A program made the position numbers and the translations under genes. A stretch of DNA of 40,684 bases from a virus. The stretch covers positions 1 through 40,684 of IMG/VR virus record IMGVR_UViG_3300022745_000010; one strand, written 5' to 3'. Shown one piece after another: positions 4,173-29,918 of this stretch. The notes beneath the pieces were generated by a model. That model saw only the letters and a program-made list of their open reading frames with translations, did no database searches and was not told the DNA's origin. How positions within the stretch are numbered: position 1 is the stretch's first letter; each line of letters begins with the position of its first letter.

Positions 4173-5162
4173 TTAATCCTTGTTACCGGCGGCCTCTGCC
4201 GCACGGACTGCATTTTTCACTGCACGGACCGCGGCTTCGCGCCGCGCGTCTTCGTCGTCAACGATGGTTTCCGGGGCCCGCCGGGTTCCCGTCTCCTTGC
4301 TGGAGATAGGACTTGCTTGCTTGGGGGCCGTCTGCTGCGAAACCGTCCGTGCTTGAAGGCGGCTAGTGGCTTTGGAGACCGTCTTTGCGGCCTCAGCTTC
4401 CAGGTACTCTGCCAGCTCCTCAAAGGTCGCTTCAAGTCCCCCCGTCTGGCGGCGGTATTGGAGGGCGATGTTGTCGGCGATGCGCACGAGTTCTTGGGGG
4501 CGGTCCTCGTAGAGGGCCGTCAGGTGAGGATGCTTGTCCTCCGAAAGGGCGATGGCCGTGAACTGCTCCACGGCGGTTGTGCGGGCCTGGGCTTCCTGCT
4601 GGGCTTGGTAGGAGCGAACCTGCTCCTCCTCACGAGCGCGGCGAGCTGCGAGTTCTTGCTCCAGCCGCTCAATGCGCTGCTCTTCCTTGCTCTTCGCTTG
4701 CTTGGCCTTCTCTTCGGGGGAGGTGGCGTCGGCGAGCTGGAGAAGGAATTCCTCCGGGTCAATACCGGACTCTCGGATGGCGCGAACGGGGTCCGCCCGC
4801 AGCATCGCGTACCATTCCTTGTGGCGCTGAACCTCTTCCGCAGCGGCGCGAACCTTGGCGAGTTCGGCTTGCGCCGTTCCCGTCAGGAAATCGTGCTCTT
4901 CCTTGGCCTTTGCGCGGGCGGCCTGGATGGCTTCCCGCTGCTTGACGCGAATGGAGAGCTGGTCCAGCTCTTCCTTTGCGCCAGCGGGCTCTTCCTTGGG
5001 GGCTTCGGGCTTCTTTTCAGGCTCTTCGGCCCCCTCTTTCTCGGCATCCTCTGCGGCGACAAGCTGCGAGACAGCCTTGACGGCAAGGTCGCGCCGGTCG
5101 TCTTCGGAAAGCGAGGTAAGGTCGGGGGTTTCTACGACTGCGGATTCAGTTTCGGTGCTCAT
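4173..5162 (-). CDS. Scaffolding protein
   Basis: A 329-residue, highly charged protein dominated by Glu, Ala, Lys, Gln and Arg. It has long predicted coiled coils (residues around 60-200, for example EEQRIERLEQELAARRARE) and a basic C-terminus (ARREAAVRAVKNAVRAAEA). This composition, and its place directly between portal and major capsid genes, is typical of podovirus scaffolds, which direct procapsid assembly and are then released. The start has an AAGGA Shine-Dalgarno 5 bases upstream. Confidence 0.88.
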   Translation of the reverse strand: MSTETESAVVETPDLTSLSEDDRRDLAVKAVSQLVAAEDAEKEGAEEPEKKPEAPKEEPAGAKEELDQLSIRVKQREAIQAARAKAKEEHDFLTGTAQAELAKVRAAAEEVQRHKEWYAMLRADPVRAIRESGIDPEEFLLQLADATSPEEKAKQAKSKEEQRIERLEQELAARRAREEEQVRSYQAQQEAQARTTAVEQFTAIALSEDKHPHLTALYEDRPQELVRIADNIALQYRRQTGGLEATFEELAEYLEAEAAKTVSKATSRLQARTVSQQTAPKQASPISSKETGTRRAPETIVDDEDARREAAVRAVKNAVRAAEAAGNKD

Positions 5163-10546: not shown

Positions 10547-10647
10547 TGTAGACCCCAGATAACGAAGATGACGTAGACGGTAACGTAGATGCCGACGAGC
10601 CAACCGAGGTCTGGCCCTTCCGGCGGGTAGAAGGTTGCGGTTGTCAT
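10543..10647 (-). CDS. 34-residue single-pass membrane micropeptide
   Basis: ATG at 10647, stop at 10543, with ATGA overlaps on both sides. The peptide has a short polar N-terminus (MTTATFYPPEGPDLG) and one hydrophobic helix (WLVGIYVTVYVIFVIWGL). The precise coupling to both neighbours makes chance unlikely. The role is unknown; a holin-like or membrane-tethering peptide is possible, though it is far from the lysis cassette. Confidence 0.7.
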   Translation of the reverse strand: MTTATFYPPEGPDLGWLVGIYVTVYVIFVIWGLQ

Positions 10648-11186
10648 TGCTTGTCCTCAAAGAATGCGGACGTGGTTGCGTTCTTGGAGCGTAGCTTGGC
10701 GGCGGTCTCCGCTTCCCGCGCGCAAAGCTCCCAGGCCGAGAGGGAGTACGTCCGAGCGTTGTTGGCGAACGATGCGCTCTTGACGAGGAAGTCTTGCTGG
10801 CCCTCTTCCAGCCCCAGCTCCAGGAAGTAGGACGCAAAAGCATGGAGGCGCGCTTCGGTCGCAACGATGATGCCGACCCCGGAGCTTACGTAGCCGTGAG
10901 CCTTGGTCAGCTCTGCCATGCGAACCCGACGGTACTGCTCACCACGCTTGAGGTGAACGCGTAAACGTGGGTCAGCTTTCTCTGCCTGCTCGGGCGTCAG
11001 GGAGCCGCGCGTCATGAGAGGCTTCCTCCCGACCGCTGCCGTGTTTCCAGGCTCAAAGGGACGCCCCTGCTTTGGCGACGTTGCGAGGAGTTGTTCCGTC
11101 TGGTCCGCGTTCGCGGGAGTGATGGTTCTTGGTCTCCCAACGCGGGGAGCAAGCTTCCCGTTATGATTCTGTATCAAAGAGTCCAT
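10644..11186 (-). CDS. Candidate terminase small subunit (first gene of packaging operon)
   Basis: A 180-residue protein that opens the late operon. It contains 'GKLAPRVGRPRTI' and 'KQGRPFEPGNTAAVGRKPL', Gly/Arg/Pro-rich stretches like those at the N-terminus of several phage small terminase or DNA-binding proteins. A mainly helical region follows (ARLHAFASYFLELGLEEG). The small subunit recognises phage DNA and hands it to TerL. I infer this from position and composition only. The start chosen is ATG 11186, 7 bases below a promoter-like element; a TTG at 11213 is in frame. Confidence 0.5.
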   Translation of the reverse strand: MDSLIQNHNGKLAPRVGRPRTITPANADQTEQLLATSPKQGRPFEPGNTAAVGRKPLMTRGSLTPEQAEKADPRLRVHLKRGEQYRRVRMAELTKAHGYVSSGVGIIVATEARLHAFASYFLELGLEEGQQDFLVKSASFANNARTYSLSAWELCAREAETAAKLRSKNATTSAFFEDKQ

Positions 11187-11223: not shown

Positions 11224-11248
11224 CTCTACCTGCAGGCTACAAGGATAC

Positions 11249-11278
11249 TTGACACGGTTTCTGGAGGCATGGCATAAG
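11249..11278 (+). promoter_or_regulatory. Sigma70-like promoter on the plus strand
   Basis: TTGACA (11249-11254), an 18-base spacer, and CATAAG (11273-11278) form a good sigma70-type promoter. Transcription would start near 11285. It points away from all minus-strand genes and has no protein gene in front of it, only hairpins and two terminators. Confidence 0.55.
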
Positions 11279-11284
11279 AACTTA

Positions 11285-11433
11285 TGTGTCTCCCCGACGA
11301 CCCGCCCCTAAGGCGGAGGCGGCGGGGGAGAGTAGAAGCTGAACAGTTGGGCACGTCGGGTAGCCAATAAGTTCTCAGATTGTAGATATAAGGAAAGCTC
11401 TGTCCTGTCCAGGATGGGGCTTTTGCTTTATTG
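11285..11433 (+). ncRNA. Predicted plus-strand small RNA
   Basis: A transcript from the promoter at 11249-11278 would begin near 11285 and end at the first terminator near 11425, or at a second one near 11477. The 5' part folds into a strong GC stem: CTCCCCG near 11290 pairs with CGGGGGAG near 11323, with CCGCC/GGCGG inside. A less structured middle follows, then the terminator hairpin. There is no ribosome-binding site with an open frame. It would be the only plus-strand transcript of the genome. This is inferred from promoter and terminator signals. Confidence 0.45.
11394..11433 (+). terminator. Plus-strand intrinsic terminator 1
   Basis: AAAGCTC (11394-11400) pairs with GGGCTTT (11417-11423) around an inner TCCT-GTCC-AGGA hairpin, followed by a T-rich tail (TTTTGCTTTATT). 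On the minus strand the hairpin is not followed by a clean T-run, so the plus orientation is preferred. Confidence 0.6.
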
Positions 11434-11445
11434 GACCCTGACGCT

Positions 11446-11477
11446 CCAACTGCCTGGAGCTGTTGGGGTTTTTGTTT
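11446..11477 (+). terminator. Plus-strand intrinsic terminator 2
   Basis: CCAAC (11446-11450) pairs with GTTGG (11462-11466) around TGCCTGGAGCT, followed by GGTTTTTGTTT. The stem is short, so it is weaker than the first, but its long T tract in the same orientation suggests tandem termination. Confidence 0.45.
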
Positions 11478-11562
11478 AGGTAATGCTTTTTCATTTGGGG
11501 AAGTTTTTCCGTATGTGGGTCCCTCCCTAAGCCAGCAACCGCCCTCAAGGGGGGATATACCC

Positions 11563-11674
11563 CTGCAAGAAGGATGCCACGCTAAAGTACTGCAAGGATT
11601 GGACCAAGTAGCACACCCCCTACCCTTGCTGCAAGGGATGTGCCAGGTTGAGCCACTGCAAGGATTGTGCCAGT
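11563..11674. repeat. Four iteron-like repeats, consensus CTGCAAGGATTGTGCCA
   Basis: Copies of CTGCAAG begin at 11563, 11590, 11629 and 11656. They continue as AAGGATGCCA, GATTGGACCA, GGATGTGCCA and GATTGTGCCA respectively. The spacings are 27, 39 and 27 bases, that is two pairs with equal internal spacing. Such same-orientation short repeats in a non-coding region are typical of initiator-binding sites at replication origins or of repressor arrays. Confidence 0.7.
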
Positions 11675-11699
11675 GATGGGGAACATCGTTGGGAGGGGG

Positions 11700-11741
11700 G
11701 CACCTACTGAAGGCTGCCGAGCACCTACTGAGAGCTACCGA
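11700..11741. repeat. Tandem 21-bp repeat
   Basis: GCACCTACTGAAGGCTGCCGA (11700-11720) is followed directly by GCACCTACTGAGAGCTACCGA (11721-11741), with three differences. A third, degenerate piece (GAGCTACTGA) follows near 11752. It lies next to the iteron array. Confidence 0.75.
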
Positions 11742-11787
11742 GAGCCCCCTAGAGCTACTGAGCGCCCTAGGAGACACCAGGAAGCCC

Positions 11788-11823
11788 CAAAAGCAAAGAC
11801 CCTCTACCGCTAGGGTAGAAGGG
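11788..11823 (-). terminator. Terminator of the early gene cluster
   Basis: On the minus strand CCCTTCTACC pairs with GGTAGAGGG (9 bp, loop CTAGC; plus 11800-11823), followed by TCTTTGCTTTT. It lies just after the stop of the last gene of the 13934-11846 cluster, so it ends that transcript before the control region. Confidence 0.8.
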
Positions 11824-11845
11824 CCAAAGGCTGTAGGAAGCGATT

Positions 11846-12169
11846 CTAGGCTGTAGGAGCGTCCACTAGACCTACACGCCACCAAGTGCCATTCGTCTCA
11901 TCCCACAGAAAGAAAGCGTATGGGATACCAGCTACGCTGTCATCCACAAGCGCACTGTGTAGGCTATCGTCCCCATTCCCAGAGAAGGCAGCCAGGGCGA
12001 GGCCTTCCGCCTTGTGGTCTAGCTCGGGAGCGATAGACCGCGAGCATACCTCTATGAAGAGCGTATCCAGAGGGTCGGCGGGATGCACCGCAATCCAAAG
12101 GGAACCATCGCTACCGGCAATAACCGTGCCAGCGTAGTCCCGTACCGTCGTGTTATGGGTCGTTTTCAT
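11846..12169 (-). CDS. Hypothetical protein, last gene of early cluster
   Basis: A 107-residue protein with beta-type segments (VRDYAGTVIAGSDGSLWIAV) and an aromatic C-terminal part (GIPYAFFLWDETNGTWWRVG). The ATG at 12169 overlaps the previous stop as ATGA, which favours it over a longer in-frame version. No family is recognised. It is followed by a terminator. Confidence 0.75.
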   Translation of the reverse strand: MKTTHNTTVRDYAGTVIAGSDGSLWIAVHPADPLDTLFIEVCSRSIAPELDHKAEGLALAAFSGNGDDSLHSALVDDSVAGIPYAFFLWDETNGTWWRVGLVDAPTA

Positions 12170-12531
12170 CGCTTGTCGGCTTTCTCTTGAAGGTCGCTTT
12201 CCGCGCACGCCAGGTCGTCTAGAAGGCCGGGGAACGCTGCAGCGGGATGCGGTAGCTCGCTCCCGTCGTCGTCGCTGCCAGGGTAGACGGCGCAGGCCAC
12301 TACCAGCGCGTGCAGGTCAAGCTCGCTCATGGCCGTCCCTAGGCTACAGTAAGACGCGTAGACCTCCTTCCACCGTCCACGGCGGCCTTTTCGCACGTCA
12401 AGGGCTACCGTGTAGGTTTCCCGTCCCGACCTGCCAGAGCAACGCCAGTCATAATCCCACCGTACACGCCATGCCTCTCCGGTCGTGCGGTAGGTGTTTA
12501 CGATGCACTGGCGGTTCTTAAAGATTCTCAT
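12166..12531 (-). CDS. Hypothetical protein
   Basis: A 121-residue protein, basic and aromatic in its first half (WRVRWDYDWRC, LDVRKGRRGRWKEVYASY) and acidic in its second (LDDLACAESDLQEKADKR). Coupled at both ends by ATGA. Its composition allows nucleic-acid binding, but no motif is recognised. Confidence 0.75.
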   Translation of the reverse strand: MRIFKNRQCIVNTYRTTGEAWRVRWDYDWRCSGRSGRETYTVALDVRKGRRGRWKEVYASYCSLGTAMSELDLHALVVACAVYPGSDDDGSELPHPAAAFPGLLDDLACAESDLQEKADKR

Positions 12532-12710
12532 CGGCTCACCCCCGTCGTCTCTACCACCGTAGCGGCCCCTGCAATCGCTGTAGCGCGCTCTGCGAACCTC
12601 GCCGCATACCTGATAGCCGCGGAGCGTGAAGCGAGTCCCACGCGTGCCTGGAGGAGCTGCAAAGCCTTGTCGGTTTCTTCGTCCAACGTGATGGAAATTT
12701 TCGGAATCAC
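12528..12710 (-). CDS. Ribbon-helix-helix DNA-binding protein
   Basis: A 60-residue protein beginning with a beta ribbon and two helices (PKISITLDEETDKALQLL, then LASRSAAIRYAARF), the signature of ribbon-helix-helix transcription factors, which bind operators as dimers. The start is GTG at 12710, overlapping the upstream stop as GTGA; the longer open frame upstream does not look coding. It is a likely phage regulator and the clearest transcription-factor candidate here. The operators are unknown; repeats at 11563-11741 and 14138-14167 are candidates. Confidence 0.8.
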   Translation of the reverse strand: MIPKISITLDEETDKALQLLQARVGLASRSAAIRYAARFAERATAIAGAATVVETTGVSR

Positions 12711-13006
12711 TTGTCCCACCCTTTCCCGTAAAGAACGCGAACCTCGCCAAGCAACCGCCCATCCTTGCGACGCCGGAAAACCAGCGTGTCCCGCTTCGTC
12801 CCGTCCGCTTCGCCCCAAGCGCCATCCCATTCAATGGCGACCGGTACGCGTCCCGCGAGTGCCCGCTTCCCGATGGCTTCCGCGTGAGCATCGGCCGTCC
12901 GCTCCGACTTGCACCGGCGCGCGTCCGCGTCGCACCTATGCAGGTCGTTTACACAGCCTTCGCTACTGAGTTCGTAACGTATCACCTCAAAAGATGCTGT
13001 AAACAT
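12707..13006 (-). CDS. Hypothetical protein
   Basis: A 99-residue protein with an N-terminal beta-type segment (FTASFEVIRYELSS), a charged middle with three Cys, and a basic beta-rich C-terminus (DTLVFRRRKDGRLLGEVRVL). Its stop overlaps the GTG of the ribbon-helix-helix gene, which suggests coupled translation. No family recognised. Confidence 0.75.
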   Translation of the reverse strand: MFTASFEVIRYELSSEGCVNDLHRCDADARRCKSERTADAHAEAIGKRALAGRVPVAIEWDGAWGEADGTKRDTLVFRRRKDGRLLGEVRVLYGKGWDK

Positions 13007-25853: not shown

Positions 25854-25885
25854 TTCGCACCGCCTTCCGGAAGCGCGGCGGTCAT
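25850..25885 (-). pseudogene. Eleven-codon remnant joining a DUF551-type start to a DUF551-type end
   Basis: An in-frame ATG (25885) to TGA (25850) encodes MTAALPEGGAK. The first codons equal the start of the DUF551-like gene at 25620, and the last codons LPEGGAK equal the end of the DUF551 gene at 26250. It overlaps both neighbours by ATGA. The simplest reading is the scar of a deleted DUF551-type gene that kept coupled translation across the site. Confidence 0.65.
25851..25878. repeat. 28-bp direct repeat, copy 1
   Basis: The 28 bases CATTTCGCACCGCCTTCCGG plus AAGCGCGG are identical to 26251-26278, exactly 400 bases away. They encode the LPEGGAK end of a reading frame and the start codon of the next gene. 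Confidence 0.95.
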
Positions 25886-25903
25886 TTCGTCACCTCGCGC
25901 ATC
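25877..25903. repeat. 27-bp direct repeat, copy 2
   Basis: Matches 25612-25638 with one difference. The copy covers the MREVTK end of the 123-residue gene and the ATG ACC GCC start of the 11-codon remnant. Confidence 0.85.
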
Positions 25904-26253
25904 AAGTCCGATCTTTTCCAGTACAGGCCAGGGTAGACGCGCACGATCGCGAACGGCGATGCTTGGCCGTCACGGAGGATCGCAAACGCACGATCGTCGC
26001 CCATGACTTGTACGTGCCGGAAGCTGTCCGACTTAAACCCCTTGCCGAAGAGGGCGTTGATTGCCGTCGCGACGTCGTCGCAAGCAACAGCGACGTTTGC
26101 GCCGTCCAGACGAAGGCGCCATTCCGCGTGATGCACGGGTGACGGCTCTCGCGGTGTTGCTTCCCGAATGCGGCGGTAAATGCCGGACACGGAAGACGCA
26201 AAGGCGACGATATACTCGCGTTCCACGATGGTCTTGATGATGCCGAATTTCAT
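25882..26253 (-). CDS. Hypothetical protein
   Basis: A 123-residue protein (MKFGIIKTIVEREYIVAFA; RLRLDGANVAVACDDVATAI; PFAIVRVYPGLYWKRSDLM), alternating beta and helix. It lies between the two repeat copies, so it may have arrived with the duplication. No family recognised. Confidence 0.75.
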   Translation of the reverse strand: MKFGIIKTIVEREYIVAFASSVSGIYRRIREATPREPSPVHHAEWRLRLDGANVAVACDDVATAINALFGKGFKSDSFRHVQVMGDDRAFAILRDGQASPFAIVRVYPGLYWKRSDLMREVTK

Positions 26254-27835: not shown

Positions 27836-27921
27836 CAGAAACGGTGGGACTTGAACCCAACTCGCTGCCAGGGTTTACCTCTTGGGTTTTCCCGGTGTTC
27901 TCCCAGTTGAACTACGTTTCT
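27836..27921 (-). tRNA. tRNA-like gene with an 18-base anticodon loop
   Basis: An 86-base cloverleaf-like element. Acceptor AGAAACG pairs with CGTTTCT (and the pairing extends 3 bp beyond), D arm GTTC/GAAC, T arm with TTCAAGT loop. The anticodon stem CCGGG/CCTGG encloses 18 bases (AAAACCCAAGAGGTAAAC) instead of 7, so no anticodon can be assigned. The GTGACAG sequence at its 3' flank recurs at 28006-28012. Confidence 0.5.
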
Positions 27922-27926
27922 GTCGG

Positions 27927-27997
27927 TAGCGGCGTTGGGTTTCGCACCCAAGACTCCGGGGTATGGGCCCGGCATGATACTGTTTCACTACGCTGCT
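27927..27997 (-). tRNA. tRNA-Met-like gene (anticodon CAT), non-canonical
   Basis: A 71-base cloverleaf. Acceptor AGCAGCG/CGCCGCT (one A-C mismatch), D arm GTGA/TCAT, anticodon stem CCGGG/CCCGG with loop CCCATAC, T stem TTGGG/CCCAA. The anticodon is CAT, but position 33 is C instead of the universal T, and the T loop TGCGAAA lacks the TTC start. It may be a degenerate or specialised tRNA. Confidence 0.65.
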
Positions 27998-28079: not shown

Positions 28080-28141
28080 ACTGTCACGCGTTTGTGTTTT
28101 GTTTAACCTGGCCTTCGGACGGTGGGTCACCTACCACCTTG

Positions 28142-28214
28142 CGCTTCCCCCTGGACTTGAACCAGGATTGCCGGTTTCGTAGACCGGTACTCTATCCAAT
28201 TGAGCTAGGAAAGC
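28142..28214 (-). tRNA. tRNA-Arg (anticodon ACG)
   Basis: A canonical 73-base tRNA without encoded CCA. Acceptor GCTTTCC/GGGAAGC, D arm GCTC/GAGT, anticodon stem CCGGT/ACCGG with loop CTACGAA (anticodon ACG, T33 and A37 present), variable CAAT, T arm CCTGG-TTCAAGT-CCAGG. It would read CGT codons (after A34 deamination also CGC and CGA). Confidence 0.92.
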
Positions 28215-29765: not shown

Positions 29766-29918
29766 TTGGCACTAACCTTGCTACGCGCACGCGCGCACTT
29801 ATGCATACTGTACTTATGCTCTCTTCTCTTTCTTTTCTAAGAGAAGAAGAGAATATAAGAAACTACTTCATAAGAAAGAAAGAGAGAGAGAAGACATAAG
29901 ATACTACCGCGCGAATCC
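29766..29918. other. AT-rich, strand-asymmetric intergenic region
   Basis: A 153-base non-coding stretch much richer in A and T than the genome. The plus strand shows a pyrimidine run (CTCTTCTCTTTCTTTTCT) followed by purine runs (AAGAGAAGAAGAGAA, then AAGAAAGAAAGAGAGAGAGA), able to form a hairpin or a triplex. Repeated CATAAG/TATAAG motifs and a GCATAAGT direct repeat 15 bases apart (minus strand, near 29803-29825) follow. It separates the holin-like genes from the glycosidase gene. Confidence 0.6.

Follow-up and report, generated by a model that had tools for sequence, protein, structure and literature searches.

The arc/mnt control region of phage P22 combines ribbon-helix-helix regulators with facing promoters. 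It also contains the sar RNA, a small antisense RNA (PMC13397905). In phage lambda, pO gives rise to OOP, a short RNA that ends at a terminator, is made close to the origin and runs opposite to the main direction of transcription; antisense overlap and promoter interference are possible (PMC3985674). Here we describe a comparable interval, located between the packaging genes and an origin-like repeat block in a viral record of 40,684 bases (61% GC), the whole of which we refer to as the window.

Results

All genes identified in the window lie on the minus strand, as do both tRNAs found by ARAGORN, which bears out an earlier remark on the convincing protein genes in a first-pass annotation of this DNA. 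The gene set comprises a terminase, an SU10-like portal and adaptor, a capsid protein, an exonuclease, an Erf-type annealing protein, a DnaB-like helicase and tRNAs. A third tRNA, predicted from Rfam (34.4 bits) at 27836-27921 on the minus strand, adjoins the two from ARAGORN (27925-27997 and 28141-28214). A long minus-strand ORF that spans the region of interest (11226-11885) was discarded as a gene, its coding signal being absent (-0.69). The features discussed below are collected in Table 1.

Table 1. Features of the interval and its surroundings in the window, and deaminase-bearing slots in related loci
Feature	Position	Strand	Details
First gene of packaging operon	10644-11186	-	start ATG 11186; homologues in relatives and Rctr16k (gp17)
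Predicted sigma70-type promoter	11249-11278	+	TTGACA-18-CATAAG; TGG before -10
Operator-like dyad	11273-11286		CATAAGAACTTATG; overlaps plus -10
Inverted repeat, left arm	11277-11299	+	AGAACTTATGTGTCTCCCCGACG; 22-23 nt, imperfect
28-codon ORF, probably chance	11284-11370	+	MCLPDDPPLRRRRRGRVEAEQLGTSGSQ; ATG 11284, TAA 11370
Predicted short transcript	11285-11476	+	from promoter and terminators; ~140 nt (stop at T1) or ~190 nt (stop at T2)
Inverted repeat, right arm	11354-11375	-	minus-strand AGAACTTATTGGCTACCCGACG; begins where predicted minus promoter would start RNA
Weak candidate packaging-operon promoter	11379-11406	-	AGGACA-16-TACAAT; 9/12 matches, alone not above chance; faces plus promoter
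Intrinsic terminator T1	11393-11429	+	14-pair stem 11393-11424; tail TTTTGCTTT
Intrinsic terminator T2	11435-11476	+	stem 11435-11470; dG about -21.9; tail TTTTGTTT
Origin-like repeat block	11540-11770		CTGCAAGG x3, TGCCA, GCACCTACTGA x2, AGAGCTACYGAG x2
Terminator-like hairpin	11800-11822	-	tail TCTTTGCTTTT; closes repeat block on far side
Ribbon-helix-helix (CopG/Arc-type) regulator gene	12528-12830	-	~1 kb from control region
Deaminase-bearing slots	L018 4789-5638, L023 2262-2944, L028 4693-5453, L038 1354-1749		in related loci; content varies from phage to phage

The predicted plus-strand promoter is present exactly where the first-pass annotation had placed it. It is unique in the window on both strands as an exact TTGACA with a spacer of 16-18 and at least four of six matches in the -10 box, a combination expected by chance 0.22 times per strand. 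The -10 match is moderate, since its final base is G and the conserved T is missing, and a consensus promoter scan misses the promoter for this reason; the preceding TGG is of the extended -10 type (TGn). From the promoter position, transcription would be expected to start at about 11284-11286. Conservation of the promoter sequence in related phages is not clear, the 13-nt match ACTTGACACGGTT in one of them (L010) being marginal (7/200 against shuffles, uncorrected for nine loci).

The two tandem plus-strand terminators described earlier, T1 and T2, were likewise both found, and they are the strongest of that strand in the window, with no plus-strand gene there to terminate. Single terminators of such strength are not rare in shuffled sequence, with a mean of 1.6 per strand, and two isolated ones occur in 47 of 100 shuffles. 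A plus-strand pair less than 80 nt apart was obtained in none of 100 dinucleotide shuffles.

Together with the minus-strand hairpin on the far side, T1 and T2 place terminators on both flanks of the origin-like repeat block, and one related locus (L009) also has a far-side terminator, at 4185-4210. This arrangement could be that of an insulator and nothing else, the terminators barring stray plus-strand transcription from the repeats and the promoter match being accidental. We find this improbable, as there is no other plausible plus-strand transcription to stop, the upstream genes all being on the minus strand, and as the promoter match sits at the expected place. In relatives, the position of the repeat block is occupied by TGCCA/TGGCA-rich blocks, often with a GGGGCCC-TYC-GGGCC hairpin.

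The strong GC hairpin that had been claimed for the 5' end of the RNA did not survive comparison with shuffles of its own sequence, being no more stable than these (11285-11345, z -1.26); for 11285-11430, which includes T1, the value is z -1.68. The further statement that no ORF lies between promoter and terminators is strictly incorrect, for a 28-codon ORF exists, but it holds in the sense that there is no credible protein gene. Could this ORF nevertheless be a tiny gene, read by ribosomes from a leaderless mRNA with its 5' end at the AUG? The predicted transcription start falls on or beside the ATG, leaving the ORF practically leaderless, and small proteins are found at the equivalent place in other phages. 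Against this, the ORF has no relative and no ribosome-binding site, its length is that expected by chance, and its arginine-run composition is typical of GC-rich non-coding DNA, all of which makes a protein gene highly improbable.

More unusual than the 5' hairpin, and overlooked by the first-pass annotation, is an imperfect inverted repeat that spans both facing promoters and ranks among the top three for its span when the entire window is scanned. CATAAG or its complement CTTATG occurs 10 times in the window, with two copies in the operator-like dyad and four in an intergenic region at 29798-29900, and CATAAG is the sole 6-mer to cluster at two sites by the criterion applied. The inverted repeat and this clustering suggest a shared operator, with the ribbon-helix-helix protein as a candidate for the regulator that binds CATAAG, although this is only a guess. 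No long inverted repeat in the window is stronger than the one that the region 29798-29900 carries beside its four motifs, and this region is a candidate for a second control region with the same operator.

An RNA initiated from the TACAAT (11384-11379) of the weak minus-strand promoter would start at about 11372-11375, at the first bases of the right arm, so that the two facing promoters would share their initial sequence. The plus-strand RNA from 11285, by comparison, cannot form the full stem, because part of the left arm (11277-11285) lies upstream of its start. The paired sequences may be features chiefly of the minus strand or of the DNA itself, as a 5' stem in the leader of the packaging mRNA or as a shared operator, with the plus promoter weak or silent. 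The position of the left arm, a minus RNA that would begin with the stem, the two CATAAG clusters and the ribbon-helix-helix gene are all in keeping with this. It would, however, leave unexplained two strong plus-strand terminators that are useless without plus transcription, and as a minus-strand structure the stem stands out only moderately (z -2.1); we regard the explanation as rather unlikely.

Relatives were sought with a capsid protein alignment and with a terminase alignment that included Rctr16k and Polyangiaceae contigs, and about 20 related loci were found, most of them with 40-47% identity in the terminase and 54-58% in the capsid protein. No relative is close to the window (TerL about 40-47%). 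Its terminase or portal alone gave no confirmed relative in IMG/VR, DNA patterns for terminase motifs yielded nothing useful, and no direct DNA relative of the window was found in phage records. Two terminase relatives (L005 and L006, 33-36%) lie in assemblies of Polyangiaceae (Myxococcota), which hints at the hosts that the group may infect.

The first packaging gene was placed in the relatives by tblastn and a profile, and twelve related loci were compared over the slot that separates this gene from the repeat block, on the strand corresponding to the plus strand of the window. The slot usually holds a divergent unit on that strand with a variable protein cargo. Four slots contain a cytidine/dCMP deaminase, three of them above the Pfam cut-off (dCMP_cyt_deam_1; L018, L028, L038) and one by homology (L023); in L018, L023 and L028 a second gene is SLOG/DprA-like by inspection, and L063 has a SLOG/DprA-like protein with Pfam matches just under the cut-off. 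Other small genes occupy the slots of L009, L010, L061 and L062. The window has the position and strand of such a divergent accessory (moron-type) unit, but in place of accessory-protein cargo only the 28-codon ORF, and none of the relatives' slot proteins matches its slot. Elsewhere in the window, a minus-strand ORF at 25882-26253 shares a PxPxHHAE stretch (PREPSPVHHAEWRL) with the deaminases; with no PCxxC motif and no Pfam match it was rejected as a relocated deaminase, and it is perhaps a degraded or diverged one.

In five relatives (L009, L010, L018, L061, L063) a terminator stands directly before the TGCCA/TGGCA-rich block, and the terminator tails of L009 and L010 read TTTTGCTTTGG, the same as that of T1. 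Over the same loci, the window included, equivalent-strand terminators number 0.31 per kb in the 2-kb slot vs 0.04 per kb elsewhere, a density some eight times higher. Five of 13 slots (L023, L028, L031, L038, L062) have no terminator at dG <= -10, and that of L027 has a single weaker one, unlisted by the scan. A first terminator-like hairpin in L009 (4819-4800) was discarded, as it sits in a coding frame apparently common to L061. The virus Rctr16k, whose first gene and terminase are homologous to those of the window, was set aside as a comparable unit, its intergenic stretch being GC-rich and devoid of comparable terminators.

The distance from the first-gene ATG to T1 in the window, 207 nt, is about that of the divergent intergenic region alone in cargo-bearing relatives (roughly 180-310 nt). 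One other lineage, comprising L024, L025, L027 and L030, which represent practically one phage (>99.9% identity), has a unit of ~210 nt in which no protein gene is evident and whose end is terminator-like (CCACACT..AGTGTGG-TTTTTTT). Aligned locally to each relative, the window slot mostly scores no better than shuffles do. AGAACT inverted repeats in the window and in L027 were considered as covariation and rejected: their arms are 81 and 50 nt apart, respectively, and they are absent from other slots, making the likeness suggestive only.

A conserved structured RNA family would be recognised by homologues with covarying pairs, and nhmmer found no homologue of the predicted transcript in any related locus; matches in Rfam were at chance level, with nothing above gathering. 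Of the small RNA proposed by the first-pass annotation, one part is upheld more firmly than the other. The prediction of a short terminated transcript from the plus strand is well supported, through the promoter, the tandem terminators and the terminator-bearing divergent unit of relatives. A dedicated regulatory role, in which the RNA would have a host or phage mRNA or protein as its target in trans, is unlikely in our estimation: the combination of promoter, tandem terminators and no protein gene would suit it, as would the short unit of the L024/L025/L027/L030 lineage, but it sits poorly with the want of homologues in related loci and in Rfam, with a 5' part that folds at shuffle level and with a slot that relatives use for proteins. 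The annotation's suggestions of replication priming and of action on an RNA chaperone found no support.

Discussion

Comparison of the slot across relatives therefore leads us, with moderate confidence, to read the interval as a complete but cargo-less copy of a divergent unit that is standard in this phage group, from which a short RNA would be made, its effect, if any, being most likely in cis. In the relatives, a promoter lying immediately upstream of the first packaging gene would read away from the packaging operon, and transcription would cross a few variable accessory genes, stopping in several phages at the terminator directly before the repeat block. In the window the accessory genes are absent, and the promoter at 11249 would drive only a short RNA that ends at the tandem terminators, after ~140 and ~190 nt, before reaching the repeats. 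Given the distance between the window and every relative, the comparison is compatible both with loss of cargo and with its original absence.

We infer that the plus unit is transcribed, that the minus promoter is used and that the effect is in cis. Action of the RNA on the adjacent packaging operon is plausible on grounds of geometry, and might take either of two forms. Transcription of the plus unit could compete with expression of the packaging operon, as transcription interference, or the first 90 nt of the RNA could pair with the leader of the packaging transcript made from the opposite side. The 22-nt sequence common to the two facing promoters is perhaps an operator.

A bolder extension is that the group keeps a 'cargo bay' between packaging operon and replication origin, usually occupied by small accessory proteins, and that some lineages have exchanged these for a functional small RNA. 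Controlled by the operator of the packaging operon, this RNA would link transcription near the origin to the packaging switch. We hold this to be doubtful and offer it as speculation. Should cargo-less copies prove to make a functional RNA, they would provide a simple system for the coupling of origin-proximal transcription to late gene control. The comparison turns an isolated small-RNA guess into a defined, comparable locus, and it points, in a little-known phage group whose relatives come only from metagenome contigs, with distant terminase matches in Polyangiaceae assemblies, to a divergent accessory slot beside origin-like repeats, often with a terminator between the two.

How does this locus compare with known systems? 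The likeness to the P22 arc/mnt region lies in the ribbon-helix-helix gene about 1 kb from the control region; in contrast to the sar system, where the RNA is directed against the mRNA of an antirepressor controlled by ribbon-helix-helix proteins, no antirepressor gene was identified in passing in the window, and there is no homology. The resemblance to lambda pO/OOP is one of sequence features, a predicted promoter and the terminators T1 and T2 standing beside an origin-like repeat block, opposite to the main operon. Neither the phage collection nor Rfam gave a match to the lambda OOP/cII/O region. Whereas OOP is antisense to the cII transcript, the RNA of the window would overlap the predicted leader of the packaging operon, and would do so only if the weak promoter at 11379-11406, or one upstream of it, is used. 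The third parallel is with phage moron or accessory-gene units, which carry their own promoter and terminator. The window copy differs from these in having no credible protein gene, but the relatives resemble them in their variable small genes, carried in a divergent unit that is in several cases bounded by a terminator.
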